A stretch of DNA of 64,000 nucleotides, taken from positions 27,898-91,897 of the forward strand of contig JARGOX010000026.1 of assembly GCA_029233925.1 (NCBI GenBank). Reading direction: 5' to 3'. A model generated the notes under the pieces. The model saw only the letters and a program-made list of their open reading frames with translations. It did not search any database and was not told where the DNA came from. Made by a program: the position numbers and the translations under genes. The stretch comes from Rhizobiaceae bacterium (GTDB lineage Bacteria > Pseudomonadota > Alphaproteobacteria > Rhizobiales > Rhizobiaceae). Shown here piece after piece: positions 13,896 through 35,704 of the stretch. Numbering within the stretch: position 1 is the first letter of the stretch; each line of letters opens with the position of its first letter.

Positions 13896-13903
13896 TCTGT
13901 GCA

Positions 13904-13925: not shown

Positions 13926-13960
13926 TTCTTCTACTTCAGCAGAAAATCAGCGGAACCGGC

Positions 13961-15530: not shown

Positions 15531-15832
15531 CCGGATCGCTGCGCAAGTCGAGCGGATTTCGGGGCAAGAAATGCGGTAAATTCAAGGGGATGGATGCTCT
15601 TGTTGATTCACCCAAATGGGCAGGGCTTCGGAAACTCAACCCGTCATGCCACAAATCAATGTAACAACAACCGGATAGATTGAAATTCGGACTCATTTTC
15701 CCGGAAATGACTTCCGGCCTGACATGCCCGAAATCACGCCAGTCAAATGCAACCATAAGATTCTGAAATCAACCCTTTGCAACGGTTTCCTGAATCAGAA
15801 TGGCAACCGCTTTTGAGGGATGAACCAGCCCG

Positions 15833-17506
15833 TCAATTGCCCAGAATGCCGGGCAGGCGCAGGTTGTTTTCGCGGGCGCAATCCAGCGCGATCTCATAGC
15901 CAGCATCCGCGTGGCGCATGACACCGGAGGCCGGATCGTTCCACAGAACGCGAGCGATGCGCGCGGCGGCGGCATCTGTTCCGTCGCAGCAGATGACCAT
16001 GCCGGCATGTTGCGAAAAGCCCATCCCGACACCGCCGCCATGGTGCAGGCTGACCCATGTGGCGCCCGATGCACAATTGAGCATGGCGTTGAGCAAGGGC
16101 CAGTCGGACACGGCGTCCGAACCATCTTTCATCGCCTCGGTTTCGCGGTTGGGGGACGCGACCGAACCTGAATCGAGATGATCGCGGCCAATTACCACCG
16201 GCGCTGACAACTCTCCGGTTCTGACCATTTCATTGAAGGCGAGACCCAGCTTGTCACGCTGGCCGAGACCCACCCAGCATATGCGGGATGGCAGTCCCTG
16301 AAAGGAAATGCGTTCGCGGGCCATATCGAGCCAATTGTGCAGGTGGGGATCGTCCGGGATCAGTTCCTTGACCTTGCAATCGGTCTTGTAGATATCCTCC
16401 GGATCGCCGGAAAGGGCGGCCCAGCGGAAAGGGCCGACGCCGCGGCAAAACAGCGGCCTTATATAGGCGGGAACAAAACCTGGAAAGACAAAGGCCTCTT
16501 CAAGTCCTTCATCCCGTGCGACCTGACGGATATTGTTGCCGTAGTCAAAGGTCGGAATGCCCGCCTTGTGAAAGGCGACCATCGCCGCCACGTGAATTTT
16601 CATCGAGGCCCTCGCGGCCTTTTCCACCGATTTGGGATCGCTCTCGCGGCTGGCTGTCCACTGCGCCAGGGACCAGCCCTGCGGAAGGTAACCATTGACC
16701 GGATCATGGGCGGAGGTCTGGTCGGTGACCATGTCAGGTCTGACGCCCTTTCGAACCAGTTCGGGAAGGACATCGGCGGCATTGCCCAGAAGACCGACAG
16801 ATTTGGCTTCGCCTGCTTTCGTCCAGCGCGCGACCATCGCCAGTGCGTCATTGAGGCTTTCGGTCTTTTCATCGACATAGCCGGTGCGCAGCCGCATATC
16901 GATCCGTTCCGGATCACATTCAACCGCAAGGCAGCAGGCTCCGGCCATGGTTGCCGCCAGGGGCTGGGCGCCGCCCATGCCGCCAAGGCCGCCGGTCAGG
17001 ATCCATTTGCCGGTGAGGTTGCCGCCATAGTGCTGACGGCCCGCTTCCACAAAGGTTTCATAGGTGCCCTGCACAATGCCCTGACTGCCGATATAGATCC
17101 ATGACCCGGCGGTCATCTGGCCATACATCATCAGGCCTCTTCTATCGAGCTCGTTGAAATGGTCCCAATTGGCCCAATGGGGCACGAGGTTGGAATTGGC
17201 GATCAGCACACGCGGCGCGTCCGCATGGGTCCTGAAGATGCCGACCGGCTTTCCCGATTGCACCAGCAGGGTTTCATTGTCTTCCAGCGATTTCAAGCTG
17301 GCGACAATCTGGTCAAAGGCCTCCCAATTGCGTGCAGCCCGGCCGATGCCGCCATAGACGATCAATTCATGGGGATTTTCCGCCACGTCCGGATGCAGAT
17401 TGTTCATCAGCATGCGCAGCGGCGCCTCGGTCAGCCAGGATTTGGCATTCAGTTCGCTGCCTGTGGGCGGGTAAATATCGCGGGTGTTGTGCCGAGGGTT
17501 TGTCAT
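15833..17506 (-). CDS. hutU: Urocanate hydratase
   Basis: [101 protein letters not shown]-like region. Confidence 0.97.
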
Positions 17507-18339
17507 GATCTGTGAGCCTTTGGCGTTTCGGGCTGTTTCTGTAGCACCTGATCCAGTGCCCATCGCTCGATCGACACAAGGATATCGGACAGATGCCGCT
17601 GCAGTTTTTTTGCCTTTGCGGCATCGAGTTCAAACGGATGGGTTTCGCTGGCCAGATGGGATTTTTGCGTCAGTTCCATCTGGATTGCATGCACGCCTCG
17701 CTCCGGTTTGCCGTAGTGACGGGTTGTCCATCCGCCCTTGAAGCGACCATTCACCACAAGGCTGTAACCCTCTGCCGCGCGGCAGATCCGGGCGACGATG
17801 TCCTCCAGCGCCGGGGCGCAGGTCGTGCTGTCATTGGTGCCGATATTGAAATCGGGCAGGGTGCCTTCAAACAGAAAAGGTGCGACGGAGCGGATCGAAT
17901 GGCAATCATAGAGGATGGCAATGCCATGCAGGTCGCGCACCCGTTCAATTTCTGCGGCCAGGGCTGCATGATAGGGCGCGTGAAAGGCAGCGCGGCGCGC
18001 CTCTATTTCTGCGGCGTCAGGTTCCATGCGAACACGATAGAGCGGCCTGTTGTCGAAATCCGTCAGCGGGCACAGCGACGTCGTATTCTGGCCCGGATAA
18101 AGGCTTTTGCCCGATGGGTCCCTGTTGGCATCAATGACGGTTCGATGAAATGTAGCGCGCACCGTCGTCACTTCGGGCAGCAGGCCCCGATAGAGATCAT
18201 GGATATGCCAGTCCGTATCGGTCAGCGCTTTGCCTGTCTCGTTGAGCCGCACAAAAATGGCTTCAGGCACATCAAGGCCCGTATGGGGCAAGCCCAGAAT
18301 GACGGGACTGTCGCCGCGCGCAATCTCTACCGGGTTCAT
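17503..18339 (-). CDS. hutG: N-formylglutamate deformylase
   Basis: [40 protein letters not shown]...[27 protein letters not shown]...YDCHSIRS; located in hut operon. Confidence 0.95.
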
Positions 18340-19895
18340 GGTGACACGTGCCTTTCTGCGCCCAGCGGCGGTATCAGCTGAATGCCGCTGGCGTTGACCA
18401 AAGCGCGGGTGCGCACGAGCTCAGCCGATTTTTCCAGATCGCCTGCCATATAGCGATCATCGGTGAGAACCGCGATGTCCTGTCGATAGACATCCATAAC
18501 GCGGGCAAGCGGCGCGCTGGTTTTCAAGGGCGCGCGAAAGTGGATGCCCTGCGCGGCGCACAGCATCTCGATACCCAATATGCGGCCCAGATTGTCATTC
18601 ATGTCGGCCAGACGGCGTGCGCCATGCGCCGCCATGGAGACATGATCTTCCTGATTGGCGCTGGTCGGCGTGCTGTCGGTTGAGCAAGGGTTGGCGCGTT
18701 GTTTGTTTTCACTCATCAGGGCGGCGCTGGTGACTTCGGCAATCATCAGACCGGAATTGAGGCCGGGCTTGGGTGTCAGGAAGGGCGGCAGGTCGAAACT
18801 CAATGTCGGATCCACCATCAGCGCAATGCGGCGCTGCGAGATGGCGCCGATCTCGGCAATGGAAAGTGCGATCTGATCGGCGGCAAAAGCGACGGGTTCA
18901 GCGTGAAAATTGCCTCCGGAAATCACATCTCCCGTTTCGACGATGACCAGCGGATTGTCTGTCACCGCATTGGCCTCGATTTCGAGCGTCGTGCCAACCT
19001 GGCGCAACAGGTCGATACAGGCACCGGTGACCTGCGGCTGGCAGCGGATGCAATAGGGATCCTGCACACGGGTATCGCCCTCACGGTGACTTTCGCGAAT
19101 GGCAGAACCTTCCATCAGGGCCCTTATGGCGCTTGCTGCTTCGATCTGGCCGCGGTGACCGCGCAAGGCATGGATTTCAGGCCGCATGGGGGCGGTGGAC
19201 CCCATGATTGCATCGGTCGAAAGAGCGCTGATCAGCAGCGCATTTTCCGCGCAGCGCCAGGTTTCGAACAATTCGCCAAGCGCATAGGCGGTGGAAAATT
19301 GCGTGCCGTTGATAAATGCCAGCCCTTCCTTCGGGCCCAGCGCAATCGGTTCCAGCCCGGCGGCCTCCAGAGCTGCGCGTCCCGGCAGGATCTGCCCTTC
19401 GTGAACGGCTTCGCCCTCCCCGATAATGACCGCAGTCATATGGGCAAGCGGCGCCAGGTCACCGGAGGCACCAACGGATCCTTGAGCGGGAATGACGGGG
19501 ATGACTTTGCGGGCCAGCATCTGCTCCAGCAAGGTGACCAGTTCGAAACGCACCCCCGAAGCACCACGACAAAGCGAAAGCAATTTCAGCACCATCATCA
19601 TGCGCACGGTGCGTTCGGGAACCGGGGCGCCGACCCCGCAGCAATGGGAAAGGATGAGATTGCGTTGCAAGGTGGCTGCATCTCTGGGGGCAATCTTGAC
19701 GCTTGCCAGTTTGCCAAAGCCTGTGTTGACCCCATAGACGGCGGCATCTCCGGCGACGACTTCGGCAATGATGGCCGCAGCGGCATCAATGCCCGGGCGG
19801 CAGGCTGGATCGATCCTGATGTCCGGTTCGTTCCAGTAGATGGATTCAAGCTGCGCCAGCGACATGGCGCCGGGTGTCAGGGTTATGGCAGTCAT
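18336..19895 (-). CDS. hutH: Histidine ammonia-lyase
   Basis: MIO-forming ASG motif in [40 protein letters not shown] at 19895 overlaps hutI stop. Confidence 0.97.
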
Positions 19896-21097
19896 GAAAG
19901 GCTCCCGACGATGCGGCGAGTGAGAGGGTTGAACCCCATTCGGTAGGCGAGTTCCGCCGGGTGGGTGACATCCCACAGTGCAAGTTCGGCGCTTTTTCCA
20001 GTCTCAATGGTGCCGACATGCGCCAGCCCCAGAGCCCGTGCGGCATTCCGCGTCACGCCTGCCAAAGCCTCTTGCGGCGTAAGGCGGAACAAGGTGCACG
20101 CCATATTCATGCTCAGGAGCAGTGAGCTGAGAGGGGATGAACCGGGGTTGCAATCGGTGGCGAGCGCCATGTCGACGCCGTACTGCCTGAAGAGGTCCAC
20201 CGGTGGCTTCTGTGTCTCGCGCAATGTGTAATAGGCGCCAGGCAGCAGAGCGGCGACAGTCCCGGCATTGCTGAGCGCGATGACACCCTCTTCATCGAGA
20301 TATTCCAGGTGGTCGACCGACAATGCGCCGAATTCAGTGGCCATTTTGGCGCCGCCGAGATTGGAGAGTTGTTCCGCATGCAATTTGACCGGCAAGCCGA
20401 GGCTGCGGGCTTTTTCGAAGACCCGTCTGATCTGCGCCGGAGAAAAAGCGATACCCTCGCAAAATCCGTCGACCGCGTCGACCAGACCTTCGCGAAAGGC
20501 GACCTCAAGGGTGGGAATGCACACGTCATCAATATAGGCGTCCGGCTTGTCCGCATAGTCCGGCGGAATGGCATGTGCGCCGAGAAAACTGGTGCGAATG
20601 CGAATATTGCGTTCTTTTGAAATGGCGCGCGCCGTGCGCAGCATGCGCAATTCGGTTTCGCAATCCAGGCCGTAGCCGGATTTGACCTCGATTGTCGCTG
20701 CACCTTCGGAAATCAGTTGATCGACCCGGGCGAGCGCCGAGGCCAGCAATGCGGCGTTGCTGGCGCTGCGTGTTGCTGTCACTGTCGCGTTGATGCCGCC
20801 ACCGGCGCGGGCGATGTCCTCATAGGAGGCACCCTGCAAGCGCATTTCGAATTCTCGGGCGCGGTTGCCCCCGGCGACGATATGGGTGTGACAGTCGATC
20901 AGGGCAGGGGTGATCAACCGCCCGTCTACATCCTCAATCGGCAAATGGCTGAAAGTTTGCGGAATATCCGTGGCCGAACCCAGCCAGGATATGCTGCCGT
21001 CCACAACGACAAGCGCGCCCTGTTCGATGAGGCCATAGTCGGCCCCGCCCTTTGTCATGGTGGCAATTCGGGCATTCTTGAGGATAAATCCAGTCAT
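19892..21097 (-). CDS. hutI: Imidazolonepropionase
   Basis: [78 protein letters not shown]. Confidence 0.97.
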
Positions 21098-21130
21098 GGA
21101 TCATCTGCTTTCGGCTTTTGCTTTCTTCCG

Positions 21131-21152
21131 TTATTATGTATATTCATAATAA
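21131..21152. promoter_or_regulatory. Candidate HutC operator in hutI/hutF divergent promoter
   Basis: TTATTATG-TATATT-CATAATAA: perfect 8-bp arms, and core TGTATATTCA differs by one base from the described HutC core TGTATATACA. Confidence 0.75.
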
Positions 21153-21178
21153 ATTATTGTCAACGAAATGGAGTGGGC

Positions 21179-22552
21179 ATGACGCCGCTTTTTGCTGAAC
21201 AGGCACTTCTTCCCGATGGCTTGGCCAGGGACGTGCGGATCGTCGTGGATGACGCCGGTATTATCGCCAGCGTGACGCGGCACAGCGCGCCGCAGCCATC
21301 CGATCTGAACCTGCAGTCAAGGCTGCTGCTGCCCGCCCTGTGCAATGTGCACAGCCACGCGTTCCAGCGGGCCATGTCGGGCATGACGGAATACCGGTCT
21401 GCCAAACACGATGATTTCTGGACCTGGCGGAGGCTGATGTATCGTTTTCTGGATGTACTCACCCCGGATCACATCGAGGCGATTGCCGCCCTTGTCTATG
21501 TGGAGATGCTGGAGGCGGGTTATGCCGCCGTCGGCGAGTTTCACTATGTGCACCACCAGCCCGGCGGGCGCGTCTATGACAATCGTGCCGAATTGTCTGA
21601 ACGCATCTTTGCAGCGAGCCAGCTGTCCGGCATTGGCCTGACCCATCTGCCGGTTCTCTATTCCTATGGTGGCGCCGGTAAAGCGCCATTGCAGGGAGGG
21701 CAATTGCGCTTTGGCAATGATCTGGAGGAGTTCACACGGCTTTTTGAAGCCGCCAAAAAGGCCATGAACCATCTTCCGCCCGACAGCGCAATCGGTGTTG
21801 CGCCCCATTCTCTGCGGGCCATGGACCCGCAAAACCTCGAACAGATCGCCTCACGCTTTAAGCAGGGGCCAATCCATATCCATGCAGCCGAACAGGTCAG
21901 GGAAGTTGAAGACGTACAGGCCTGGCTGGGCGCCCGTCCGGTTGAATATCTGTTGGAAGAGGTGGGTGTCGATCCGCGCTGGTGCCTGATACACACCACC
22001 CAGATGAATGACACGGAGACCAGCGGTCTGGCGCAATCCGGCGCTGTTGCCGGCCTGTGTCCGATCACCGAGGCCAATCTCGGCGACGGCATATTCAACG
22101 GGCAGGAATTCCTGGCGGCAGGAGGCACTTTTGCCATCGGATCGGATTCCAATATTCGCATTTCCCTGTCGGAGGAATTGCGGCAGTTGGAATATAGCCA
22201 GCGGCTGTCGCTCAGGGCCCGCAACATCATGGCGTCGAGCGATCTGTCGACGGGGCAATTGCTCTACACGAAGGCTGCTGCGGGCGGTGCGCAGGCCCTG
22301 CAGCGCAACAGTGGCGCTCTGCAAGTGGGAAATTGGGCTGATCTGGTGGCCATTGATACGCAGGACATTCATCTGTGCGGATTGTCGCAAAGACAGCTTC
22401 TGGATGGTTGGATTTTTTCCGGCAATGACCGGCTTGTAACGGACGTCTGGTCGGCAGGGCGTCATTGTGTGCAAAATGGCCGCCACCGGCAGCGCGATTC
22501 GATTGCGCATCACTATCGTGGCGTGCTTCGCGAACTGACCAATCTTCTGTGA
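21179..22552 (+). CDS. hutF: Formimidoylglutamate deiminase
   Basis: Start ATG 21179 in frame within ORF 20717..22552. LLPALCNVHSHAFQRAMSGMTEYRSAKHDDFWTWRRLMYRFLDVLTPDHIEAIA; GSDSNIRISLSEELRQLEYSQRL. Confidence 0.95.
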   Translation: MTPLFAEQALLPDGLARDVRIVVDDAGIIASVTRHSAPQPSDLNLQSRLLLPALCNVHSHAFQRAMSGMTEYRSAKHDDFWTWRRLMYRFLDVLTPDHIEAIAALVYVEMLEAGYAAVGEFHYVHHQPGGRVYDNRAELSERIFAASQLSGIGLTHLPVLYSYGGAGKAPLQGGQLRFGNDLEEFTRLFEAAKKAMNHLPPDSAIGVAPHSLRAMDPQNLEQIASRFKQGPIHIHAAEQVREVEDVQAWLGARPVEYLLEEVGVDPRWCLIHTTQMNDTETSGLAQSGAVAGLCPITEANLGDGIFNGQEFLAAGGTFAIGSDSNIRISLSEELRQLEYSQRLSLRARNIMASSDLSTGQLLYTKAAAGGAQALQRNSGALQVGNWADLVAIDTQDIHLCGLSQRQLLDGWIFSGNDRLVTDVWSAGRHCVQNGRHRQRDSIAHHYRGVLRELTNLL

Positions 22553-22568
22553 CGGGATCACCATCGGC

Positions 22569-23276
22569 ATGCGCAGCTACAAGGACATTCACAATATTCT
22601 GCTGGAGCGTATCAAGAGCGGTGAGTGGCCGCAGGGCGGTCTGATTCCTGCAGAGGCGGATCTGGCTCTTGAATTTGGCTGCACGCGGGTGACGGTCAAC
22701 CGGGCGATGCAGGCGCTCGCCGATGGCGGGCTTCTCGAGCGGCGGCGCAAGGCCGGAACGCGGGTTATCCAGCGGCTGACACGCAATGCGCATTTTCAGA
22801 TCCCGATCGTTCGCCATGAGATCGAAAAACGCGGTGGCAATTACAAATACCTGTTGATCGGCCGGGAAGAAGTGACTGTCCCACAAAAGGTGCAGGCCGA
22901 ACTGGCCATCGGCCCGGATGAAAGCGCCCTGCACATCCTCAGTCTGCATTTTGCCGATGGCAAACCCTATCAACTGGAAGACCGCTGGATTGCCTTGGGC
23001 ACCGTGCCCCTGGCGCGGGAGGAAAGCTTTGATGCAATAAGCCCCAATGAATGGCTGTTGCAGCAGGTCCCCTATACAAATGCGGAACATGTTTTTCGCG
23101 CCGCACAGCCCACACCGGAAGATGACGACCATTTGAAACTGGCGCCAGGCGAACCGGTTTTCATCATAGAGCGGACAACATGGTTGTCAGACAAGGCGGT
23201 GACCCATGTTCGGCTGGTTCACCCGGGCCACAGTTTTCAACTGGTCACCCGCGACCAGAATGCCGCCACGCTTTAG
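22569..23276 (+). CDS. hutC: GntR/UTRA-family histidine utilization repressor
   Basis: wHTH (IKSGEWPQGGLIPAEADLALEFGCTRVTVNRAMQALADGGLLERRRKAGTRV) plus UTRA domain; downstream of hutF. Confidence 0.93.
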   Translation: MRSYKDIHNILLERIKSGEWPQGGLIPAEADLALEFGCTRVTVNRAMQALADGGLLERRRKAGTRVIQRLTRNAHFQIPIVRHEIEKRGGNYKYLLIGREEVTVPQKVQAELAIGPDESALHILSLHFADGKPYQLEDRWIALGTVPLAREESFDAISPNEWLLQQVPYTNAEHVFRAAQPTPEDDDHLKLAPGEPVFIIERTTWLSDKAVTHVRLVHPGHSFQLVTRDQNAATL

Positions 23277-23398: not shown

Positions 23399-24292
23399 GT
23401 GAGCAAGCGCTATTACGGTCTGCCATCTCTGACCAGCCTGGCCGTGTTCGAGGCCACGGCACGGCATCTGAGTCTGAAACAGGCGGCCTCGGAGCTTAAC
23501 GTCACACCCGGCGCTGTCAGTCACCAGATCAAGGCACTGGAAAGCGAAGTCGGCAAACCCCTGTTCAAACGCATCCACAGGGGCGTTGAACTGACGCAGG
23601 CTGGTGAAGAGCTTCACTTCGTGCTGGCCTCATCCTTTGCGCAGATGGCGTCCTCCATTGACATGATCAGTTCCGGCACGTCCGAGCGAACGATCACCAT
23701 CGGCGCAACCACGGCCGTTGCAGGCCTTTGGCTGATGCCAAGGATGGGGCGTTTCCTGCAGGCACATCCCGATGTGCGTCTTAACCACCGGGTTTCCGAC
23801 ACCTCCTTCGATTTGGCGCGTTCGGATGTGGATCTGGTCGTGCGATACGGGTCAGGTCGGCGCGACGGAGAACATTCGATCAAACTGTTTTCCGATACAG
23901 TCGTACCGGTTTGCAGCCCGGAATTTGCCGCAAACCATGTGGTGCAGAGCTGTGAAGATCTGCTGGCGCAACCTTTGCTGCAACTGGAAGGCCTGGATAC
24001 CGGCTGGATGGGCTGGAAGGGATGGTTTGCCGAGTGCGGCGTTGATGCGCCGCGCATTCACGGTCCGAAATTCAACAATTATACCATTGCACTGCAGGCA
24101 GCAGAACAGGGTGCCGGCATCGCTCTTGGATGGCAGCGGCTGATTGATCGATATCTGTCAGCTCAAAGGCTGGTTGTGCTGCCCGGCTTTCGCGTGACGC
24201 CGCCGGGGGCCTTTTATCTCTCCTGGAGCAGCAAGAAAGAACCTGATTCATCCCTTGCGCTGGTGCGCGACTGGCTGGTGCATGCGGTGTGA
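23399..24292 (+). CDS. LysR-family transcriptional regulator (GcvA-like)
   Basis: LPSLTSLAVFEATARHLSLKQAASELNVTPGAVSHQIKALESEVGKPLFKRIHRGVELTQAG. GTG start inferred at 23399. Confidence 0.92.
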   Translation: MSKRYYGLPSLTSLAVFEATARHLSLKQAASELNVTPGAVSHQIKALESEVGKPLFKRIHRGVELTQAGEELHFVLASSFAQMASSIDMISSGTSERTITIGATTAVAGLWLMPRMGRFLQAHPDVRLNHRVSDTSFDLARSDVDLVVRYGSGRRDGEHSIKLFSDTVVPVCSPEFAANHVVQSCEDLLAQPLLQLEGLDTGWMGWKGWFAECGVDAPRIHGPKFNNYTIALQAAEQGAGIALGWQRLIDRYLSAQRLVVLPGFRVTPPGAFYLSWSSKKEPDSSLALVRDWLVHAV

Positions 24293-24399
24293 AATTTCAG
24301 GTGAATCATGCTCACCTGAAAGCGAATTGATTCCGAATTGATCGATACCCGGTTTGTGCGTCATGAATGCAAACAGAGTGCGTTCTCATGGAGGGTGTG

Positions 24400-25572
24400 A
24401 TGGGTTTTGTTCAGCCGGTTGATCTGGAGCGTGTCATGAGACCCGTCCATCAGGCGCAGGGTCTTGCCAATGAATTCTATGTGGACCCGAACCTGTTCGA
24501 GCAGGAAAAATCAGCCGTCTTCTTTCGGAACTGGACGGCGATCGGTTTCTGCAAGGATGTGCCCGAACCCGGTGATGCCATGCCCGTCGACCTTCTTGGG
24601 CAGCCCCTGTTGGTGGTGCATGGACGCGACGGCATGGTGCGGGTTTTCCAGAATACTTGCCGCCATCGTGGCATGATCCTGATGGAGAAAAAGGGCAGAC
24701 TGCGCGGCGCGATCCGCTGTCCCTATCATTCCTGGTGTTACGATCATGATGGCGCCTTGAAAACCACCCCCCATGTGGGCGGGCCGGGAAAGAATATCCA
24801 CGAGGATATTGATCGCAGCACCTTGGGGCTGTTTCCCATTCGCTGCCATGTCTGGCGCGATATCCTTTTCGTCAATCTGTCCGGCGATGCACCGGAGTTT
24901 GACGATTACGCCGCAGACCTGAAGGCACGCTGGGCAGAATTCGATCAGCCCATGCATCCCGGCGGCGACGAAAGTGCGTTTCGCCTGGAGCTTGATACCA
25001 ATTGGAAGCTGGCGGTCGAAAACTATTGTGAAAGCTATCATCTTCCCTGGGTTCACCCCGGTCTCAACAGCTATTCCCGGCTGGAAGACCATTACAATAT
25101 CGAACAGCCGGGACATTTTTCAGGGCAGGGCACCCGCGTCTACCGGTCGATGATCAATGAAGGGGGCGCGCCTTTTGCGGATTTTGAGGGCCTCGGTGAT
25201 AAATGGCAGGCCGGTGCGGAATATGTAGCGCTCTACCCCAATGTCCTGCTGGGTGTGCACCGCGATCATGCCTTTGCCATCATCCTGCAACCGGTGACCC
25301 ACGAAAAGACCATCGAGCACGTGCAGCTTTATTACGCCACCGGCGATACGGCCGTGGCAGACCGCTCCGACTTGCGCGCCGCCAATGCCGCGCTTTGGAA
25401 AACGGTGTTTGCAGAGGACATTTTTGTGGTGGAAGGCATGCAAAGAGGACGGCACGGAGCAAAATTTGATGGCGGACGGTTTTCTCCCATCATGGACAGT
25501 GCGACCCATCTTTTTCACCACTGGGTGGCCAGCCAGTTTGCCGCTTCGCTGCAGGACAAAGAACCCGTGTGA
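24400..25572 (+). CDS. Rieske [2Fe-2S] aromatic-ring-hydroxylating-type oxygenase alpha subunit (GbcA/Stc2-like)
   Basis: Rieske motif CRHRGM...CPYHSW; mononuclear iron region NWKLAVENYCESYHLPWVHP. Confidence 0.92.
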   Translation: MGFVQPVDLERVMRPVHQAQGLANEFYVDPNLFEQEKSAVFFRNWTAIGFCKDVPEPGDAMPVDLLGQPLLVVHGRDGMVRVFQNTCRHRGMILMEKKGRLRGAIRCPYHSWCYDHDGALKTTPHVGGPGKNIHEDIDRSTLGLFPIRCHVWRDILFVNLSGDAPEFDDYAADLKARWAEFDQPMHPGGDESAFRLELDTNWKLAVENYCESYHLPWVHPGLNSYSRLEDHYNIEQPGHFSGQGTRVYRSMINEGGAPFADFEGLGDKWQAGAEYVALYPNVLLGVHRDHAFAIILQPVTHEKTIEHVQLYYATGDTAVADRSDLRAANAALWKTVFAEDIFVVEGMQRGRHGAKFDGGRFSPIMDSATHLFHHWVASQFAASLQDKEPV

Positions 25573-25802
25573 TGGTGAATCCGGAAAATTTGAATGCAGC
25601 CTTGCTGGATGCCCATGACAGAGCCGAAGGCGGTCGATTGGCTGAACTCTATCATAGGGCTGCAAGCATCAGTGAACAGGCCGGTAAGATGGACCAGGCC
25701 TGTTTCTATTTCACCCATGCCTATGTCTTTGCCCTGCAGGAGGGCCTGCCCGTGGCAACGGACCTCCATGCACGGCTGAAGGCGCTCGGTCGCGAAGAAT
25801 GA
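25569..25802 (+). CDS. Small uncharacterised helical protein (77 aa)
   Basis: ATGA overlap with the Rieske gene stop; MVNPENLNAALLDAHDRAEGGRLAELYHRAASISEQAGKMDQACFYFTHAYVFALQEG... is TPR-like. Confidence 0.65.
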   Translation: MMVNPENLNAALLDAHDRAEGGRLAELYHRAASISEQAGKMDQACFYFTHAYVFALQEGLPVATDLHARLKALGREE

Positions 25803-25829
25803 CAGTCTCGGTCGCGAAGAATGACAGTC
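25785..25829 (+). repeat. Perfect 22-bp tandem duplication spanning a stop codon
   Basis: CTCGGTCGCGAAGAATGACAGT repeated twice in tandem (25785-25806, 25807-25828), followed by C. Confidence 0.95.
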
Positions 25830-25866
25830 CGGCAGATGCAACAAGCCGGCAATCGAAAGTGAACAG

Positions 25867-28293
25867 ATGAAATCACATGCAAAGGTCGTGGTCATTGGCG
25901 GCGGTGTCGTCGGGTGTTCGGTTCTCTATCACCTGACCCGCTTCGGTTGGCGTGACGTGGTTCTTGTTGAGCGGTCTGAACTCACATCCGGTTCAACATG
26001 GCATGCGGCAGGCGGCATGCATACGATCAACGGCGATCCCAATGTCGCAAGGCTGCAAAAATATACGATTGATCTCTACCGGGAGATCGAAGCGCTGTCA
26101 GGGCAGGATATCGGCCTGCACATGACGGGTGGGGTCATGTTGGCGGCCACTCAGGCGCGGTTTGACTGGCTCAAATCCATCGTCGCCAAAGGAAAGATCA
26201 CCGGGCTTGAGGCAGAGATCATTTCACCGCGCGAAGCCCATGAACTGATGCCTTTGCTGGATCCGGAGCAATTTGTCGGCGCTCTTTACGACGAGGTGGA
26301 AGGCCATCTGGACCCCTATGGCACAACCCATGCCTATGCGAAATCCGCCAAAATGGGCGGTGCCGAAATATACACCCGTACAAAGGTTGAAGACCTCGTG
26401 CAGCGACCGGATGGCCATTGGCGGGTGATCACCAATGCCGGTGAAATCATCGCCGAGCATATCGTCAATGCCGGTGGTCTATGGGCGCGGGAGGTGGGGC
26501 GCATGGTCGGGTTGGAACTGCCTGTTCTGGCGATGGAGCACATGTATCTGATCACCGAAGACATGGATGAGGTGGCCGATTTCAACCAGGCCACGGGCAA
26601 GGAAATGCTCCACGCCGTCGATTTCGATGGTGAACTCTATCTGCGGCAGGAGCGCAAGGGCATGCTGATGGGCACCTATGAGAAGGATTGCCGGCCCTGG
26701 AGCGAACGCGAAACGCCCTGGTCCTTCGGACACGAATTGCTGGAGCCGGATCTGGACCGGATCATTCCGGAACTGGAGGTCGGCTTCAGGCATTTTCCCG
26801 CCTTCAACAATGTCGGCATCAAGCAGATCATCAATGGACCCTTCACGTTTTCGCCCGATGGCAATCCGCTGGTCGGCCCGGTACGCGGCCTGCGCGGTTT
26901 CTGGTCTGCCTGTGCTGTGATGGCCGGATTTTCACAAGGCGGAGGCGTCGGTCTGGCTCTGGCAAACTGGATGATCCATGATGATCCGGGCTTTGATGTC
27001 TTTGCCATGGATATCGCCCGCTATGGTGATTACGCCACCATGGCCTATACCAATGCACGGGTACGCGAGAACTATGCGCGGCGTTTTTCCATACGTTTTC
27101 CCAATGAGGAACTGAAAGCGGCCAGAGGATTGCGCACGACGCCGATCCACGGCGAATTGAAAGCCGCGGGCGCGCAGTTTGGTGCAGCCTATGGGTTGGA
27201 GGTGCCCCTGTGGTTTGCGCCGGAAGGTGTGGAAGATACGTTCTCCTGGCATCGCTCGACCGACTTTGAGCATGTCGGGGCGGAAGCCCGGGCGGTCCGC
27301 GAGAGTGTCGGCCTGATGGAAATATCCGGTTTTGCAAAATACCGCATATCCGGAGCCGGAAGTGCCGAGTGGCTGGACCGGCTGCTGGCCTGCCGCCTTC
27401 CGGGGCAAGGGCGCATGACACTGGCGCCGATGCTCAAACAGGACGGCAAGCTGATCGGTGACTTCACGCTCGCCCGGTTGAACGACAACGAATGGTTCCT
27501 TGCCGGATCGGGGATTGCTGAAGGTTATCACATGCGCTGGTTTGAACAGCATCTGCCGGATGACGGTTCTGTCAAAATTGAGGCCCATGGCGGCAATCTT
27601 GTGGGCCTGTCGATTGCCGGGCCGAGGGCACGCCAGGTGTTGCAGAAGGTCACACAGACAGATGTGAGCGCCGAGGCCTTCCGCTTCATGCACTTCGCAC
27701 GAATGGATATCGGCATGGCCGATGCCCTTGTTGGCCGTGTGTCGTTCACCGGAGACCTGGGCTATGAAATCTGGATGAAACCGGAATTGCAGCGTCATGT
27801 GTTCAACGAACTGATGGACGCCGGTGCCGCCTTCGGTATCAGGCTGTTCGGGTTGCGCGCGCTCAATGCGTTGCGGCTGGAAAAGGGCTTTGGCGGATGG
27901 GCGCGTGAATACCGGCCACTCTATGGTCCTTGCGAAACAGGTCTTGATCGTTTTGTTGCCTATGACAAACTGGCGGACTTCACCGGCAAGGCTGGGGCAA
28001 TTGCAGAAAGACAGGACGGTGGCGCCATGCGCCTGTGCACATTTGTTGTGGACGCCACGGACGCCGATGTCATCGGTGATGAGCCTATCAGCCTGGATGG
28101 TCATCTCTGTGGCTGGGTGACATCGGGTGGCTATGCCCATGCCGCGCAGGTTTCAGTCGCGATGGGTTACGTGCCACGGGAAATGGCAGAGCGCAGCGAC
28201 GGATGGCAGATCGAAATATTGGGAGAAAAAGTGACAGCCCGGCTGCAGTCCCATGCCTTGTTTGATGACAATGGATCGCGCATGCGATCATAA
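25867..28293 (+). CDS. Dimethylglycine/sarcosine dehydrogenase-like FAD oxidoreductase with GcvT-type C-terminal domain
   Basis: N-terminal VVVIGGGVVGCSVLYHLTRFGWRDVVLVERSELTSGSTWHAAGGMH and C-terminal folate-binding GcvT-like region (VGLMEISGFAKYRISGAGSAEWLDRLLA...). Confidence 0.92.
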   Translation: MKSHAKVVVIGGGVVGCSVLYHLTRFGWRDVVLVERSELTSGSTWHAAGGMHTINGDPNVARLQKYTIDLYREIEALSGQDIGLHMTGGVMLAATQARFDWLKSIVAKGKITGLEAEIISPREAHELMPLLDPEQFVGALYDEVEGHLDPYGTTHAYAKSAKMGGAEIYTRTKVEDLVQRPDGHWRVITNAGEIIAEHIVNAGGLWAREVGRMVGLELPVLAMEHMYLITEDMDEVADFNQATGKEMLHAVDFDGELYLRQERKGMLMGTYEKDCRPWSERETPWSFGHELLEPDLDRIIPELEVGFRHFPAFNNVGIKQIINGPFTFSPDGNPLVGPVRGLRGFWSACAVMAGFSQGGGVGLALANWMIHDDPGFDVFAMDIARYGDYATMAYTNARVRENYARRFSIRFPNEELKAARGLRTTPIHGELKAAGAQFGAAYGLEVPLWFAPEGVEDTFSWHRSTDFEHVGAEARAVRESVGLMEISGFAKYRISGAGSAEWLDRLLACRLPGQGRMTLAPMLKQDGKLIGDFTLARLNDNEWFLAGSGIAEGYHMRWFEQHLPDDGSVKIEAHGGNLVGLSIAGPRARQVLQKVTQTDVSAEAFRFMHFARMDIGMADALVGRVSFTGDLGYEIWMKPELQRHVFNELMDAGAAFGIRLFGLRALNALRLEKGFGGWAREYRPLYGPCETGLDRFVAYDKLADFTGKAGAIAERQDGGAMRLCTFVVDATDADVIGDEPISLDGHLCGWVTSGGYAHAAQVSVAMGYVPREMAERSDGWQIEILGEKVTARLQSHALFDDNGSRMRS

Positions 28294-28316: not shown

Positions 28317-28348
28317 GCCTGTCCAGAATAAGAGGACTCAGGACAGGC
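28317..28348. terminator. Hairpin between convergent DMGDH-like and GntR genes
   Basis: GCCTGTCC...GGACAGGC 8-bp stem with 16-nt loop, overlapping the GntR gene 3' end. Confidence 0.45.
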
Positions 28349-29054
28349 GCATTGCAACCGCATCATCCGTGCCGTGCGGAATTTCAAGGCCAATCGACAG
28401 ACCTTGCGGCGCGATCGAGGGCATGATGAGCTTGCGGGAAAGCACCCAATGTTCGTAGGCGAGTTCTTCCGAACGCTGTTCGTCATGCTGCCGAAAAGCC
28501 TCAATCATCTGTAAGTGCTGCTCACCGGCAATGATCAGATTTCTCTGCAGTGCAGGATTCTTGGCCTGGTAGTAGGTGTTCGCGATGCGGGCATGGTCAA
28601 TCAGCAGCCGCTCATAACTCGGCTTGAGGAATTCATTGTCTGCCATTTCACCGATCAAATGGTGAAACTGATTGTTGTAAATGGCCAGATCAATGGTGGA
28701 GCCGGCCCTCACGGCTGCAGCGAATTCCTTCTGGAAAATTCCGAGTTCGCCGATTTGGTGCGGCTTTGCATTGCGCGCTGCCAAACGACCGATGGCGGCA
28801 TACATCATGGGCGCTGCCAGGAAAAAATCACGCAAAGTCTTGTGTGACATGGGAGATACACAGGCACCGCGATTGCTTTCAATGACGAGATATCCCTCGC
28901 CGGCCAGATGGCGGAAGACGTCACGCAGAGGCGTACGGGAAATACCGTACTCCCGGCTCAACTGCATTTCATCCAAATTCGCCCCTGGCTCGAGTTCGAG
29001 CGTTATGACGCGCCTTTTAAGATCCCGGTAGAGGTCTTCCTTGCCATTATTCAA
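28338..29054 (-). CDS. GntR-family regulator (FCD domain)
   Basis: LYRDLKRRVITLELEPGANLDEMQLSREYGISRTPLRDVFRHLAGEGYLVIESNRGACVSPMS plus helical FCD-like C-terminus. Confidence 0.92.
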   Translation of the reverse strand: MNNGKEDLYRDLKRRVITLELEPGANLDEMQLSREYGISRTPLRDVFRHLAGEGYLVIESNRGACVSPMSHKTLRDFFLAAPMMYAAIGRLAARNAKPHQIGELGIFQKEFAAAVRAGSTIDLAIYNNQFHHLIGEMADNEFLKPSYERLLIDHARIANTYYQAKNPALQRNLIIAGEQHLQMIEAFRQHDEQRSEELAYEHWVLSRKLIMPSIAPQGLSIGLEIPHGTDDAVAMRLS

Positions 29055-29153: not shown

Positions 29154-29969
29154 CTAAACGTTCGACGAGTGGATTTTGCCCGCGGTTACCGACTGCGGCA
29201 AAACAAAAGCGTTGTTACCGGCGGGCACTGCACTGACGCGCAGATTGCATTCAAAAACGCTCTGCAGCAAGTCATTTTTCAAAACAGCATCTGGAGGGCC
29301 AAAATCCCGGACTTTTCCCTGATGCATGACAAGGATATTATCGGCATACATGGCCGTCAGGTTCAGATCGTGCAGAATGGCCAGCACACCGCCGCCGCGT
29401 TGGGCAAAGTCCCGGGCAATGTCCAGAATGACCAACTGATGGCGAATGTCGAGGCTCGATATCGGTTCATCAAGGAAAAGGTAGCGCGGCATCTCATCCA
29501 TGACCGGATGCCAGACCTGGCAAAGAACCCGCGCCAACTGAACCCGTTGCTGCTCCCCGCCTGACAACTCTTGATAGAAGCGCGCGGAAAAACCCTGCAG
29601 ATCAACACGCGCCAAAGCTTCCTCGACGATATCGTCAGTTTGGCTGCGTGACACACCCGTGCGTCCTGCCGTCAGCCCGAGGCGCACGACCTCGCGAATG
29701 GTGAAGGGAAATGACAGGCTTGAACTTTGCGGCAGGACAGCACGCATGGCAGCCATTTCCCAGGGCTTCAAGTCGCAGATCTCCCGGCCATGCACCCGGA
29801 TTGAACCGCCATAGGGCAGATCTCCGGAAATGGCTTTGAGCAACGTGGTCTTGCCGCTGCCATTGGGGCCTATGATTGCTGTGATTGCACCCGGCATCGC
29901 ATTGAATGCGATGTCTGACAGGATGGGCTTTTTGCCGATCTGCACCGAACCATTCTTGACTTCTATCAT
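29154..29969 (-). CDS. hmuV: Heme ABC transporter ATP-binding protein
   Basis: GPNGSGKTTLLKAISGDL; LSGGEQQRVQLARVL; YLFLDEPISSLD; operon context with hmuU/T/S. Confidence 0.95.
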   Translation of the reverse strand: MIEVKNGSVQIGKKPILSDIAFNAMPGAITAIIGPNGSGKTTLLKAISGDLPYGGSIRVHGREICDLKPWEMAAMRAVLPQSSSLSFPFTIREVVRLGLTAGRTGVSRSQTDDIVEEALARVDLQGFSARFYQELSGGEQQRVQLARVLCQVWHPVMDEMPRYLFLDEPISSLDIRHQLVILDIARDFAQRGGGVLAILHDLNLTAMYADNILVMHQGKVRDFGPPDAVLKNDLLQSVFECNLRVSAVPAGNNAFVLPQSVTAGKIHSSNV

Positions 29970-29987
29970 AGCGTTACAATGGACCTT

Positions 29988-31094
29988 TCAAAGATCGAGA
30001 AAACCACGACGGCTAAGCAGGATCCACAGGAAAAAGGGTGCGCCGACGAGTGCCGTAATGATACCGATAGGCAGTTCGGCCGGCGCGACAATGGTGCGGG
30101 CAATTGCGTCTGCGACGAGCAGCAGGCTGGCACCCAGCAAAGCCGATGCAGGCAGCAGATAGCGATGATCCGGTCCGATCAGCAGGCGCAACAGGTGCGG
30201 TACGACGATACCTACAAATCCAATCCCGCCACTGACGGCAACACTGGCACCGGTCGCGGCTGCCACAACCAGTATCGAGCAGGCCTTCAAACCCTGGACA
30301 GGAATGCCGATGTGTCGGGCGGTTGCTTCGCCCAGCGTCATGGCGTTCAGTCCGCCGGCTAGAAACGGCACAGTCAGCAGCACCACAATGATGATCGGTG
30401 CGGCTGCCAGAATCTTGACCCATGTGGCTCCCGCAAGCGATCCCATGTTCCAGAAGGTCAGGTCACGCAATTGCTGGTCATCGGCCATGAAAATCAGAAT
30501 ACCTGTCAGCGCCAGGGCAAGCGCGCCCAACGCGATGCCCGCAAGCAGCATGGTGGCGACGGAGGTTTTGCCATTCTGTGTCGATACTCTGTAAAGCACC
30601 AAGGTTGTAATCAGGGCGCCGGCAAAGGCCGTCAACGGCAGGGCAAAGACACCCAGGAAAGCGGCAATGGGCGCAAGCGTTGAAGACCCCAATACTATCA
30701 TCGTCACCGCCCCGAGCGCTGCTCCCGATGATACCCCGACAATACCGGGATCGGCCAAGGGATTACGGAACAGGCCCTGCATAGTCGCTCCGCATACCGC
30801 AAGGCTGGCCCCGACCAATATGCCAAGCACCATACGGGGTAGCCGGATGTCATGGATGATGATGGAATCGCGGATGCTCAGTTCGATCTGGCCACCGGTC
30901 AGCGGCGCTATCCAGGACTGGATAACCGCCAGCAGGGAAGCGTCGGAGGCCCCTGTTGCCAGGCTGAGAAAAGACGTCACGGCCAGAAGGCCGGCAAGCC
31001 CGACAAGTGTCAGGCGTGCCTTCACCGACCGGTCACCCCTGGTGTCGTTCCGATTTGCAGGCAAATGTGAGGCCGTGGACAGGGTTTGCAACAT
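29988..31094 (-). CDS. hmuU: Heme ABC transporter permease (FecCD family)
   Basis: RLPRMVLGILVGASLAVCGATMQGLFRNPLADPGIVGVSSGAALGAV; GGIGFVGIVVPHLLRLLIGPDHRYLLPASALLGA. Confidence 0.95.
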   Translation of the reverse strand: MLQTLSTASHLPANRNDTRGDRSVKARLTLVGLAGLLAVTSFLSLATGASDASLLAVIQSWIAPLTGGQIELSIRDSIIIHDIRLPRMVLGILVGASLAVCGATMQGLFRNPLADPGIVGVSSGAALGAVTMIVLGSSTLAPIAAFLGVFALPLTAFAGALITTLVLYRVSTQNGKTSVATMLLAGIALGALALALTGILIFMADDQQLRDLTFWNMGSLAGATWVKILAAAPIIIVVLLTVPFLAGGLNAMTLGEATARHIGIPVQGLKACSILVVAAATGASVAVSGGIGFVGIVVPHLLRLLIGPDHRYLLPASALLGASLLLVADAIARTIVAPAELPIGIITALVGAPFFLWILLSRRGFLDL

Positions 31095-31097
31095 CGT

Positions 31098-31982
31098 TCA
31101 GTGTGCCTTGCCGGAAATTGCGTTGGAAAGCTCGCGGACAGCCTCGGCGGTTCGGGGCCCGAATCCGAGCAGATAAAGGCTGTTCATCCGCACCACTTTC
31201 CCGGCCTTCGCCGCCGGTGTTGATCCCAATGCGGCATGTGTCAGGACAGAATCATCATCCGTGGAATGATTGCTGTTGCGATCAATCAGCAAGATCACGT
31301 CCGGAGCGGCATTTATCACAGCCTCGTCTGAAATCTGTTTGTAGCCGGCAACCCCGGAGATGGCATTTTCGCCGCCAGCCATTTCAATAATGCCTGCAGC
31401 GCTTGTCCCGGTGCCGGCAGCCATGACCTTGCCGCCCTGAAGGCTCAGCACGAAAAGAACGCGCTTGGAATGTGTGTGCGAGACGTCATCCTTCTGGACC
31501 GCTTCAAGGTCCGCTTCCACCTGCCGTGCCAGCAGATCGGCTTTTTCCTCGACACCCAGGGCTTTGCCGACGATGCGGATTTTCTCCACAATACCCGAGC
31601 GGTTATAGTTCTCCGGTACGGTGATGATTGTCAGGCCTGACTTTTGCAGAACGTCGAGCGCTTCCGGTGGACCGGCACCCTCCAGGGTGAGCATCATTTT
31701 CGGATTGACCGACAGGACGCCTTCCGGCGACAGGGCTCTAATATAGCCGACATCCGGCAAATTGAGGGCTTCGGGCGGAAACAGGCTGGTCGTGTCCCGG
31801 GCAATCAACTGGTCTTCCTCACCCAGAGCGTAAACAATCTCGGTGATGGAGCCGCCTATGGCGACAATTCCGCCATCAGCAGCAACTGCCCCGGCAGTAA
31901 AGGAAAAGCCAAATAGTATTGCGGCAACAGCTGTTGCCCGTACGAGGGTATTTACTCCGCGAGCAAGCGTTTGCGTGATCAT
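31098..31982 (-). CDS. hmuT: Heme ABC transporter periplasmic binding protein
   Basis: Signal peptide; GGIVAIGGSITEIVYALGEEDQLIARDTTSLFPPEALNLPDVGYIRALSPEGVLSVNPKMML. Confidence 0.93.
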   Translation of the reverse strand: MITQTLARGVNTLVRATAVAAILFGFSFTAGAVAADGGIVAIGGSITEIVYALGEEDQLIARDTTSLFPPEALNLPDVGYIRALSPEGVLSVNPKMMLTLEGAGPPEALDVLQKSGLTIITVPENYNRSGIVEKIRIVGKALGVEEKADLLARQVEADLEAVQKDDVSHTHSKRVLFVLSLQGGKVMAAGTGTSAAGIIEMAGGENAISGVAGYKQISDEAVINAAPDVILLIDRNSNHSTDDDSVLTHAALGSTPAAKAGKVVRMNSLYLLGFGPRTAEAVRELSNAISGKAH

Positions 31983-32028
31983 GATCGTCTCCAGTGCATA
32001 TCGATAGCTATGAAATTCAGTTGCCTGC

Positions 32029-33123
32029 TCAGGCCGGTGCGGGCTGCCGCACCTTTGGCAGGCTTTCCATCACAAGGCGCCAGTCATCACGCTCAACCTC
32101 GCCCTCGTGGCGTTTGCCGAAAAACTGGATGATCAGTTGATGATTTCTGTCATAGGCTTCCATCGAGGTGACATGACCATCCTTGGTCGGTTTGCGAACC
32201 GCCCATAGTTCATGGATGTGATCAAGCCGCAGATGCATGTGAAATTTCGGATCCAGTATATTGATCCAGGGGCCCATGGTTTTGATGTCGTGGATTGGTC
32301 CCGAATGGATCTGAACGCAGCCCGGGCTGCTGATGAAACACATGATGGGGATTTCTTCGCTCACCGCCAGATTCAGCATGGCAACGAGGCTGTCGGCTTC
32401 AATGCGCCAGGCAAATGCATCGTCGATGGCCGTGACGGCCTGGTGTCTTGTCAGGCTGAATTTACGCAAGATGCCCATGAACTGGTGCACATCAGTCATC
32501 GCGGCCCATCGCTCCCGCAGATCGGCGATATCCGCCGTGCTGAGCACAGGCGCGGCAATCACTTCGGTCTCGGGTGGAACAATCGTTATGCTTTGGGACT
32601 GATCATCACTTTTGAGACTGGCGACCAATCGATCAAAAGCATCAACATCAGAAGCCGGACGCAAGTGAACCTTGTGGACTGCAACGCCTGCCTCGTTAAA
32701 GAACTGCAGGCTGCGTTTGATGCTTTCGCCATCCGGTTTTTCGACGCAAAACCCATGTAACCAGGCCTTGTGAAAAATGCGCAGGTCAATGTCTTCACCC
32801 AGGACAATGGCACCACGTTCACTGGTGCGGACTTTGTCATAGACGCCGATTTTTTCATGAACGGCACTCTCATTGCGGGTCAGTGCCATGACCTCTCCCA
32901 GGGCTTCAAGACTGCTGAGGATTTCATTGACCCGTGGCTCTATCCTGGTCGTCGTGATGCCGCACCAGGCGGCCACAAATTGCGCTTCTGAAATCCCCAA
33001 TTGGGAGGCAATTTCGCGCTCACGCATCTTCGGATTGTCGATCCGCGCCTGCCGGATTGCCTCGGGAGAGGGGCCCATTGTCGGCATGGATGGCTGTTCT
33101 GATATTTCTGCGATGGTGTTCAT
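32029..33123 (-). CDS. hmuS: Hemin-degrading factor / heme transport protein (HemS family)
   Basis: Duplicated HemS/ChuX-type domains: AWCGITTTRIEPRVNEILSSLEALGEVMALTRNESAVHEKIGVYDKV; FISSPGCVQIHSGPIHDIKTMGPWINILDPKFHMHLRLDHI. Confidence 0.95.
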   Translation of the reverse strand: MNTIAEISEQPSMPTMGPSPEAIRQARIDNPKMREREIASQLGISEAQFVAAWCGITTTRIEPRVNEILSSLEALGEVMALTRNESAVHEKIGVYDKVRTSERGAIVLGEDIDLRIFHKAWLHGFCVEKPDGESIKRSLQFFNEAGVAVHKVHLRPASDVDAFDRLVASLKSDDQSQSITIVPPETEVIAAPVLSTADIADLRERWAAMTDVHQFMGILRKFSLTRHQAVTAIDDAFAWRIEADSLVAMLNLAVSEEIPIMCFISSPGCVQIHSGPIHDIKTMGPWINILDPKFHMHLRLDHIHELWAVRKPTKDGHVTSMEAYDRNHQLIIQFFGKRHEGEVERDDWRLVMESLPKVRQPAPA

Positions 33124-33131
33124 GAAGATAC

Positions 33132-33356
33132 CTATTTGTTCAAAACGAGTTTGCCCTGACGGGTGATTTTAAGCCTGTAGAATAGACCCTGATGTTCGAT
33201 GCCCAGTTCTTTTGCACCTTCGAACAGGTCGTCGCTATTCAGCGTTCGTATTCTAGGTTCCTGTACGCCACCCGAATCGTCCGCCTGGGAACCGCCCGCC
33301 TGCGAATGATTGTGTTCGAGTGATGTTTTTTCAGTGCTGCTCATCTGTCCTTGCAC
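33132..33356 (-). CDS. hemP: HemP/HmuP family hemin uptake protein
   Basis: C-terminal PRIRTLNSDDLFEGAKELGIEHQGLFYRLKITRQGKLVLNK is the HemP signature. Confidence 0.92.
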   Translation of the reverse strand: MQGQMSSTEKTSLEHNHSQAGGSQADDSGGVQEPRIRTLNSDDLFEGAKELGIEHQGLFYRLKITRQGKLVLNK

Positions 33357-33435
33357 GCGAAAATGACCTTTCGAATTCGTTTTCCTGGGTTTCTCATTGC
33401 TTGTTTGGAAGCGTGGAAAAACGCTTCAATTAACT

Positions 33436-33450
33436 TGACATAAACAATCA
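33436..33450. promoter_or_regulatory. Candidate RirA (IRO-box) operator
   Basis: TGA-CATAAACAA-TCA matches TGA-N9-TCA, lies between hemP and the receptor gene, and is nested in AATTAAC(33428-33434)/GTTAATT(33452-33458). Confidence 0.55.
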
Positions 33451-33577
33451 TGTTAATTAGTGAGTGCAATACCGGAGACAAATTGTCAAGTTTTGAAAAT
33501 TGACTATTTTTGAAAAATCTCCGCCTCAGTTCAATTTAGCCAGCACGCGATTCCGCCAGCCAGCTCAGCCGATAATT

Positions 33578-35704
33578 ATGGAGAAAGATCAAATGAGTTT
33601 GGTTGGTCACAGGGCCGCGCTAATGTTGGGAAGCGCCGCATTTATCCTGTCCACAGGCATAGCGGTCGTTATGGCGCAGGACGCGGCAAATACGCCAAAT
33701 GAAGACGCCATCAAGGCAAGCGAAGAAACCGCCAGTAATGGCGAAAAGAAAGGTCGGGTCACGGCCCTTGATCGTCTTGTCGTCGGTGCGGGCATTGAAA
33801 AGGTGGCCATTGATACGCCGCAGGCCGTTTCGGTCGTTGATCAGGCCGATATCGACAATCTGCAGGCAACGGAAATCACCGATATTGTGGACAATGTTGC
33901 CGGGGTTAACGCCACCGGCGGGGCAGGGGCTTTGGGCCAGGGCTTTAACATGCGCGGTATCGGCGGCTCTGAAAGTTCGGCGGAAAAGGGCCGGATCATC
34001 CTGAACGTCGATGGGGTCAACAAGTATTTCGAGCAATACCGGATGGGTGGGCTGTTTACGGATCCTGAACTCTACAAACAGGTGGAAATCCTGCGCGGGC
34101 CTGCGTCGTCGACGCTTTACGGTGCCGGGGCACTTGGCGGCGTCGTCAATTTCACCACCAAGGATGCATCTGATTTTCTGACGGGCGACCTGAACACGGT
34201 CGTGCGTTTGAAAGGTGGCTATGAGACCAATGGTGAAAACATGCTCGGTGCGGCGATTCTCGCCCACAGGTTCAATGAAAATGCTGAATTTCTGCTGTCG
34301 GGAAACTATCGCAGAGCCGGCAATTACACCACCGGCGACGGCAGCGAAATGGTCGGCATGGAGATGGATTCACCCAATGGTCTGGCCAAGGGTACCTTCC
34401 ATTTCGGTGAAAATCTGGAGCAGGAACTGCGGGTCTCCTATCAGCAGTATACAGCCACCGAAAATGATCAGGAATACAACAAGATCAATGGGGGATCCCA
34501 GGTCTTCGGCCCCATCGACAAACGCGTTGTGACCGACAAGACGGCTATCATCGCCTATCAGAACGAAGCGGCTGACAATCCCTTTCTGGATCTCAATATT
34601 CAGGCGTCCTATTCGGATACATTCAATGATCAGACATTGGATGGTGGCGGTTCTGCCTACAACAATTCCGACTACGGTTATGAAACCTATCAGGTCAATG
34701 TCGACAATACGTTTGATCATATTGGCAAAAAGTTTGAAAACTATCTGACCATCGGCAATCAGACGGCCTATCTGATACGCACACGCGACGGCTCGGATTC
34801 GTCGACGCATCCGGAAGGCAACGAATTTCAATCCGGGTTTTTTGTTCAGAACGAATTTATCTGGGATGAGCGCCTGACCATCATCACCGGGACACGGCTG
34901 GACTATCAGCTGTTGAATGCCGATGAAAATACGACCCAGCCTGCAGGCACACCGAATGTGGATGATTGGGCTTTCTCGCCGAAAATTGCCGCCCTGTACA
35001 AGGTGACGGACGACTTTTCCGTCTTCGGCTCCATCGCTCATACGGAACGGATGCCGGGCCTCGATGAAATCTATGACAGCGTTTCAGGCCCGGTCAATTA
35101 CATGGGGTTGGAAAAGGAAAAATCCAACAATTTCGAGATCGGCTTTGCTTTGTCCGGCTATGATCTCCTCGCCGATGGTGACGGTGTTCAGCTCAAGACA
35201 ACGGCCTACTATAATGACATCACAAACCTGATCGAGGACGGAGGACGCATCGCAAGTCCGCGTTTCACCAACACCGGTCATGCTGTCATTTACGGTGCAG
35301 AAGTCGAGCTGTCCTACGATTCGGACGCTTTCTACGCCAATGCCGGATATGCCTTCGCCCGTGGCGAAAACAAGTCGGATGGCGGTGCTCTCAATACGGT
35401 CGCACCGGACGAATTCTTCTTCACGCTGGGCAAACGCCTGCCTGAGCAGGGGATCAATTTTGGCTGGACCAGCCGTATTGTCGCCGCCCAGAACGACACT
35501 GTTACCAGGCCGACAACGGCTGCCTTCGACACCCATTCAGCCTATTTCAACTGGGCACCGGTCGAAGGTCCACTGGTTGGTTGGGAGACGCAGTTCCGCG
35601 TCGATAACATATTCGACGAACAGTACGACGAATATCTCGAAGGCTACCCCAGCAGCGGGCGTTCCTTCAAATTCACGCTTGTCAAACAGTTTGGATGGTC
35701 ATGA
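33578..35704 (+). CDS. hmuR: TonB-dependent heme/hemoglobin receptor
   Basis: Plug (DRLVVGAGIEKVAIDTPQAVSVVDQADIDNLQATEITDIVDNVAGVNATGGAGALGQGFNMRGIGGSESSAEKGRIILNVDG) plus beta-barrel; heme locus context. Confidence 0.93.
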   Translation: MEKDQMSLVGHRAALMLGSAAFILSTGIAVVMAQDAANTPNEDAIKASEETASNGEKKGRVTALDRLVVGAGIEKVAIDTPQAVSVVDQADIDNLQATEITDIVDNVAGVNATGGAGALGQGFNMRGIGGSESSAEKGRIILNVDGVNKYFEQYRMGGLFTDPELYKQVEILRGPASSTLYGAGALGGVVNFTTKDASDFLTGDLNTVVRLKGGYETNGENMLGAAILAHRFNENAEFLLSGNYRRAGNYTTGDGSEMVGMEMDSPNGLAKGTFHFGENLEQELRVSYQQYTATENDQEYNKINGGSQVFGPIDKRVVTDKTAIIAYQNEAADNPFLDLNIQASYSDTFNDQTLDGGGSAYNNSDYGYETYQVNVDNTFDHIGKKFENYLTIGNQTAYLIRTRDGSDSSTHPEGNEFQSGFFVQNEFIWDERLTIITGTRLDYQLLNADENTTQPAGTPNVDDWAFSPKIAALYKVTDDFSVFGSIAHTERMPGLDEIYDSVSGPVNYMGLEKEKSNNFEIGFALSGYDLLADGDGVQLKTTAYYNDITNLIEDGGRIASPRFTNTGHAVIYGAEVELSYDSDAFYANAGYAFARGENKSDGGALNTVAPDEFFFTLGKRLPEQGINFGWTSRIVAAQNDTVTRPTTAAFDTHSAYFNWAPVEGPLVGWETQFRVDNIFDEQYDEYLEGYPSSGRSFKFTLVKQFGWS

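Follow-up and report, generated by a model that had tools for sequence, protein, structure and literature searches.

The four co-oriented genes that lie directly 3' of hutF-hutC in the window (the whole 64,000-nucleotide stretch analysed here, from contig JARGOX010000026.1 of a Rhizobiaceae bacterium) probably make up an independent cassette for the catabolism of a methylated quaternary amine; this cassette would have been inserted between hutC and the GntR gene and would have no part in the histidine pathway. They encode a LysR-type regulator, a Rieske oxygenase, a 76-aa ORF and a DMGDH-like protein, and their families, motifs, gene order, empty sites and conservation were read from sequence. 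Domain searches recovered every part of the gene set described by an earlier, sequence-only reading, namely a Rieske oxygenase, a small protein and a DMGDH-like gene beside a complete hut set; the latter comprises HutU, HutG, HutH and HutI on the minus strand and HutF and HutC on the plus strand (15833-23276). The Rieske gene is carried by 34 of 299 genomes of the family. The features of the locus are:

21134..21149, no strand: HutC operator candidate TTATGTATATTCATAA in the hutF-hutI promoter (a prediction; no second site near the cassette)
22569..23276, plus strand: HutC, repressor of histidine utilisation, on the left of the insertion (TIGR02018, above cut-off)
23399 (alternative start 23342)..24292, plus strand: LysR-type regulator, GcvA/choline-sulfate-regulator-like (PF03466/PF00126)
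24296..24320, no strand: palindrome TTCAGGTGAATCATGCTCACCTGAA 5' of the Rieske gene, probable LysR operator (predicted; shuffles)
24388 (alternative start 24367)..25572, plus strand: Rieske oxygenase, group V, quaternary ammonium (PF00355, PF00848, residues)
25572..25802, plus strand: conserved helical (TPR-like) 76-aa partner protein (its ATG overlaps the Rieske stop codon)
25867..28293, plus strand: DMGDH-like protein, putative FAD/tetrahydrofolate oxidative N-demethylase (DAO, FAO_M, GCV_T, GCV_T_C; GSTWHAAG, H46)
28338..29054, minus strand: GntR/FCD regulator (abuts hutC in congeners lacking the cassette)

The GntR/FCD regulator is part of the hut/hmu neighbourhood and lies outside the cassette. 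A heme uptake set, hmuV-U-T-S with a TonB receptor (29154-35704), flanks the cassette's other side, and an ABC transporter with an NMT1-like binding protein adjoins hutU (12882-15530). Rfam and tRNA scans across the window returned no matches, and scanning the cassette for promoters and terminators gave nothing beyond chance.

The Rieske oxygenase carries the CxH...CxxH motif and the 2-His-1-carboxylate iron site of group V, and both its cluster ligands (C91/H93/C111/H114) and its iron triad (H218/H223/D344) are invariant in aligned relatives, as is E215, which aligns with the bridging glutamate of CntA (E205). Two residues before that glutamate, Y213 matches CntA Tyr203, the residue that marks group Va enzymes acting on carnitine, choline and benzalkonium (PMC7948474), and the position is Y or F in 102/102 aligned relatives. 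The group Vb demethylases GbcA and Stc2 have an Asn in place of that Tyr (PMC7948474), an Asn that is absent here. CntA was the top PDB match both by sequence and by the fold of the AlphaFold model, followed in the fold search by Stc2 as the next kind of enzyme; these two are the group V structures reported (PMC10952381). Common to our protein and CntA (group Va, PDB 6Y8J/6Y9D) are the fold, the Rieske and iron ligands, the bridging Glu and the substrate-facing Tyr (PMC7948474). Unlike CntA, to which it is ~22-25% identical, the window enzyme has a conserved small partner protein and no adjacent reductase, and it lacks the Cys206/Cys209 pair; such a pair has been described in some group V members (PMC10952381), and the corresponding Cys-X-X-Cys positions next to the mononuclear iron are occupied here by S216 and L219. 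Stc2 and GbcA likewise belong to group V, and the Stc2 fold match nearly equals that of CntA, but the window enzyme has Tyr rather than Asn at the diagnostic site and scores 128.3 bits against the GbcA equivalog NF058607, far under its curated cut-off of 670. The former description of a "GbcA/Stc2-like demethylase" thus stands as regards a group V quaternary-ammonium Rieske and is doubtful as a label, Y213 being the group Va residue. Fold, residues and the low GbcA score together indicate an oxygenase of the quaternary-ammonium type that is closer to group Va, although the Va/Vb classification is built on few characterised enzymes, so that class does not fix the chemistry.

Conservation beyond chance indicates that the small ORF is genuine: 101 of 106 loci have a match to it within 3 kb downstream of the Rieske gene, on the same strand, and the protein has invariant positions. 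Its AlphaFold model, built from an alignment from which one row from a plasmid record was left out, consists of four helices (pLDDT 88). The fold matches of this model are weak and TPR-like, and the protein scores 16.3 bits against Pfam TPR_8, which is below the cut-off of 25.7. No other neighbour of the Rieske gene is as steady, and the constancy of this pairing suggests an accessory role with the oxygenase.

The last gene of the cassette encodes a putative FAD/tetrahydrofolate oxidative N-demethylase with the domains of the DMGDH/sarcosine dehydrogenase family (DAO, FAO_M, GCV_T and GCV_T_C). It aligns over its full length with mammalian DMGDH (PDB 4P9S), sharing the domain order and the flavin-attachment motif GSTWHAAG (H46); in contrast to the mammalian enzyme, of which it is a distant homologue, it is linked to an uncharacterised Rieske, and its activity on dimethylglycine or another N-methyl amino acid is putative. 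The window genome holds more DMGDH-like homologues, the nearest at 57-61% and on another contig. A DMGDH-like gene of one of at least two subtypes lies within ~3 kb of the Rieske gene in ~20 further non-redundant loci, so the pairing is real, if not universal. As far as the enzyme classes go, the assignment of the Rieske-DMGDH pair to methylated-amine catabolism is supported.

The same cassette is present on Phaeobacter inhibens plasmids, in the order LysR-Rieske-ALDH-small-DMGDH (Rieske 64% and DMGDH 42% identity), in a cluster so far annotated only in general terms; unlike the window, it has no hut genes, and an ALDH, a PDR/VanB reductase and a BCCT carrier are nearby. P. inhibens, Leisingera and Ruegeria all carry a LysR-Rieske-small unit, in many cases accompanied by ALDH or DMGDH, near genes for BCCT carriers, ProVWX, a PDR/VanB reductase, GlxA-type regulators, MttB-family proteins and sarcosine oxidase, which is the company of betaine catabolism. 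A BADH-like ALDH gene adjoins the Rieske gene in Phaeobacter, Leisingera and Cupriavidus, and on a Cupriavidus pauculus plasmid (L173:8965-15764) a 46% identical Rieske is followed by ALDH, two FAD oxidoreductases, EutQ and LysR. In Roseovarius, Sulfitobacter and Shimia (L097, L106, L108 and similar), the Rieske and small genes are fixed between ilvBN and amidase/prfB/PBP1A, with neither DMGDH nor LysR; since the pair stands alone there among housekeeping genes, its context is not always "betaine". A sister Rieske subfamily (L062-L069; 50-60% identical) occurs without the small protein and near genes for a GST, a Cys/Met PLP lyase, a 3-hydroxyacyl-CoA dehydrogenase/enoyl-CoA hydratase fusion and DMGDH-like proteins.

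A tblastn search with the P. inhibens PDR/VanB reductase found no match on the window's contig, in agreement with the earlier remark that the window holds no cognate reductase. Candidates elsewhere in the genome were limited to VanB-type proteins at 34-37%, three of which adjoin other Rieske genes, and none was accepted as the cognate reductase. An FMO-like gene beside the Ruegeria copies, considered as a sign of trimethylamine as the product, was set aside as Baeyer-Villiger-like rather than Tmm.

The LysR gene lies 5' of the Rieske gene in hut-linked and unlinked loci alike. The palindrome TTCAGGTGAATCATGCTCACCTGAA upstream of the Rieske gene, for which shuffles gave 0 occurrences expected by chance, is a probable LysR operator, and its GTGAAT...CTCAC core is recognisable in L039, L040 and L042. 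The HutC operator candidate, a ATGTATATTCAT palindrome, was found in the hutF-hutI promoter of eight loci, two of them cassette-less; perfect matches occur once per locus and only at this promoter, and no HutC operator candidate was found at the cassette in the eight loci compared, which places the cassette outside the predicted HutC regulon. Having a LysR gene of its own and, as predicted site, the palindrome before the Rieske gene, the cassette looks self-contained and separately regulated. The hutF, hutC, lysR and Rieske genes are co-directional in the window, and read-through from hutF-hutC into lysR-Rieske is possible.

In two genomes of the same genus that have hut but no cassette, the site is empty and GntR immediately adjoins hutC (L169, L171). 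The order is hmuRSTUV-GntR-hutC-hut in congener G164, with ~12 bp between GntR and hutC, and GntR-hutC-hut in congener G085, and neither has a cassette there. Empty sites by themselves cannot separate insertion from loss. In a sample of one family plus the best 80 GTDB loci, hut genes are close to 7 of the 109 non-redundant Rieske sequences, counting that of the window, and these seven fall on two separate branches. Six of the seven form one group in the tree (support 73, which is not firm) and share the hut-cassette order at the hut-hmu boundary, a position kept through two genera; the other, on a MAG contig (L105), is separate and has the order HutU-LysR-Rieske-small. Urocanase is no commoner in genomes with the Rieske gene (25/34) than in those without (221/265), and five near-complete genomes (G146, G162, G058, G266 and G056) retain the Rieske and small genes while urocanase was not found in them at the threshold used. 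The catalytic-domain motifs (residues 205-236 and 343-379) are essentially identical in the 7 hut-linked and 95 unlinked Rieske proteins, which argues for one common substrate. Taken together, the empty sites, distribution, regulation, co-occurrence and conservation, tests that share some genomes and are not fully independent, indicate that hut is a neighbour of the cassette rather than a partner. The position beside hut looks like a local insertion and not a sign of feeding histidine degradation, although L105 with its independent hut neighbourhood, and a position kept through two genera, leave room for some functional tie.

In the hut-linked locus of Nitratireductor sp. XY-223 (L072:4828-9010), hutC is separated from the cassette LysR by genes for a radical-SAM protein and for a SAM-dependent carboxyl methyltransferase (PF03492), and congener L037 has an old-yellow-enzyme gene in the same interval. 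The L105 contig, besides hut and the cassette, carries a second, distant Rieske (27%) with an RpiR regulator and a DMGDH-like gene (14607-19048).

The sequence-only reading had proposed stepwise demethylation of hercynine or an N-methylhistidine by the module, yielding histidine for HutH. Such a route would account for a cassette directly beside a complete hut set and for a second hut-linked branch with another gene order, and a Rieske-DMGDH pair could plausibly carry out successive demethylations. The genomic linkage that it predicts is, however, limited to one clade and one independent MAG, and congeners show empty sites; the HutC operator candidate is confined to hut, urocanase shows no positive co-occurrence and was not found in a number of near-complete genomes that have the Rieske and small genes, and unlinked copies have the same catalytic motifs. 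Our literature search, moreover, found no paper describing such a route, which we regard as very unlikely here.

Ordinary glycine-betaine demethylation, by GbcA and then DMGDH, would agree with a DMGDH-like protein closest to mammalian dimethylglycine dehydrogenase and with the glycine-betaine carriers near some relatives, but given the low score against the GbcA model and the Tyr at the diagnostic site we find it unlikely. Since Ruegeria pomeroyi uses the corrinoid Mtg system to demethylate glycine betaine (PMC12478193), a different amine may be the likelier substrate in bacteria of this kind. CntA-like chemistry, a variant of the cassette explanation that differs in the first reaction, would either split a trimethylammonium compound at its C-N bond into an aldehyde and trimethylamine or hydroxylate a choline-like carbon to give an aldehyde for an ALDH. 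The aromatic group Va residue (Y213, F in some relatives), CntA as the closest fold and the BADH-like ALDH genes of Phaeobacter, Leisingera and Cupriavidus all point in this direction; yet the window cassette has no ALDH, CntA's Cys pair is absent and trimethylamine would need no DMGDH. TMAO demethylase, in addition, had no match in the window genome at the threshold used and is not clearly enriched among genomes with the Rieske gene (10/34, versus 56/265 without). We consider this variant possible but doubtful. Homarine, too, was weighed as a possible substrate.

For the self-contained cassette that we favour, we infer the substrate class, the order of the steps, the role of the small protein and the reductase as follows. 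After entry of the cassette at the hutC-GntR junction, LysR would sense the substrate and turn on the Rieske-small-DMGDH genes, and an unlinked VanB-type reductase would feed electrons to the Rieske oxygenase, which would oxidise a trimethylammonium substrate or one like it. The helical 76-aa protein may work with the oxygenase as a subunit, assembly factor or docking factor, and the DMGDH-like enzyme would then transfer further N-methyl groups to tetrahydrofolate. The less ordinary part of this cassette is the conserved small TPR-like partner, and the Rieske proteins of this family could well, as we tentatively suggest, constitute a distinct subclass of quaternary-ammonium oxygenases that depends on this dedicated protein and acts on an amine widespread in marine and soil Alphaproteobacteria.

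The hut case warns that one gene neighbourhood is insufficient for reading a pathway. Algae, plants and bacteria exchange much carbon and nitrogen as methylated amines, and quaternary-amine Rieske enzymes with an assigned substrate are few; a Rieske family found across Rhizobiaceae-like and Roseobacter genomes together with a conserved small partner is therefore a tractable target.
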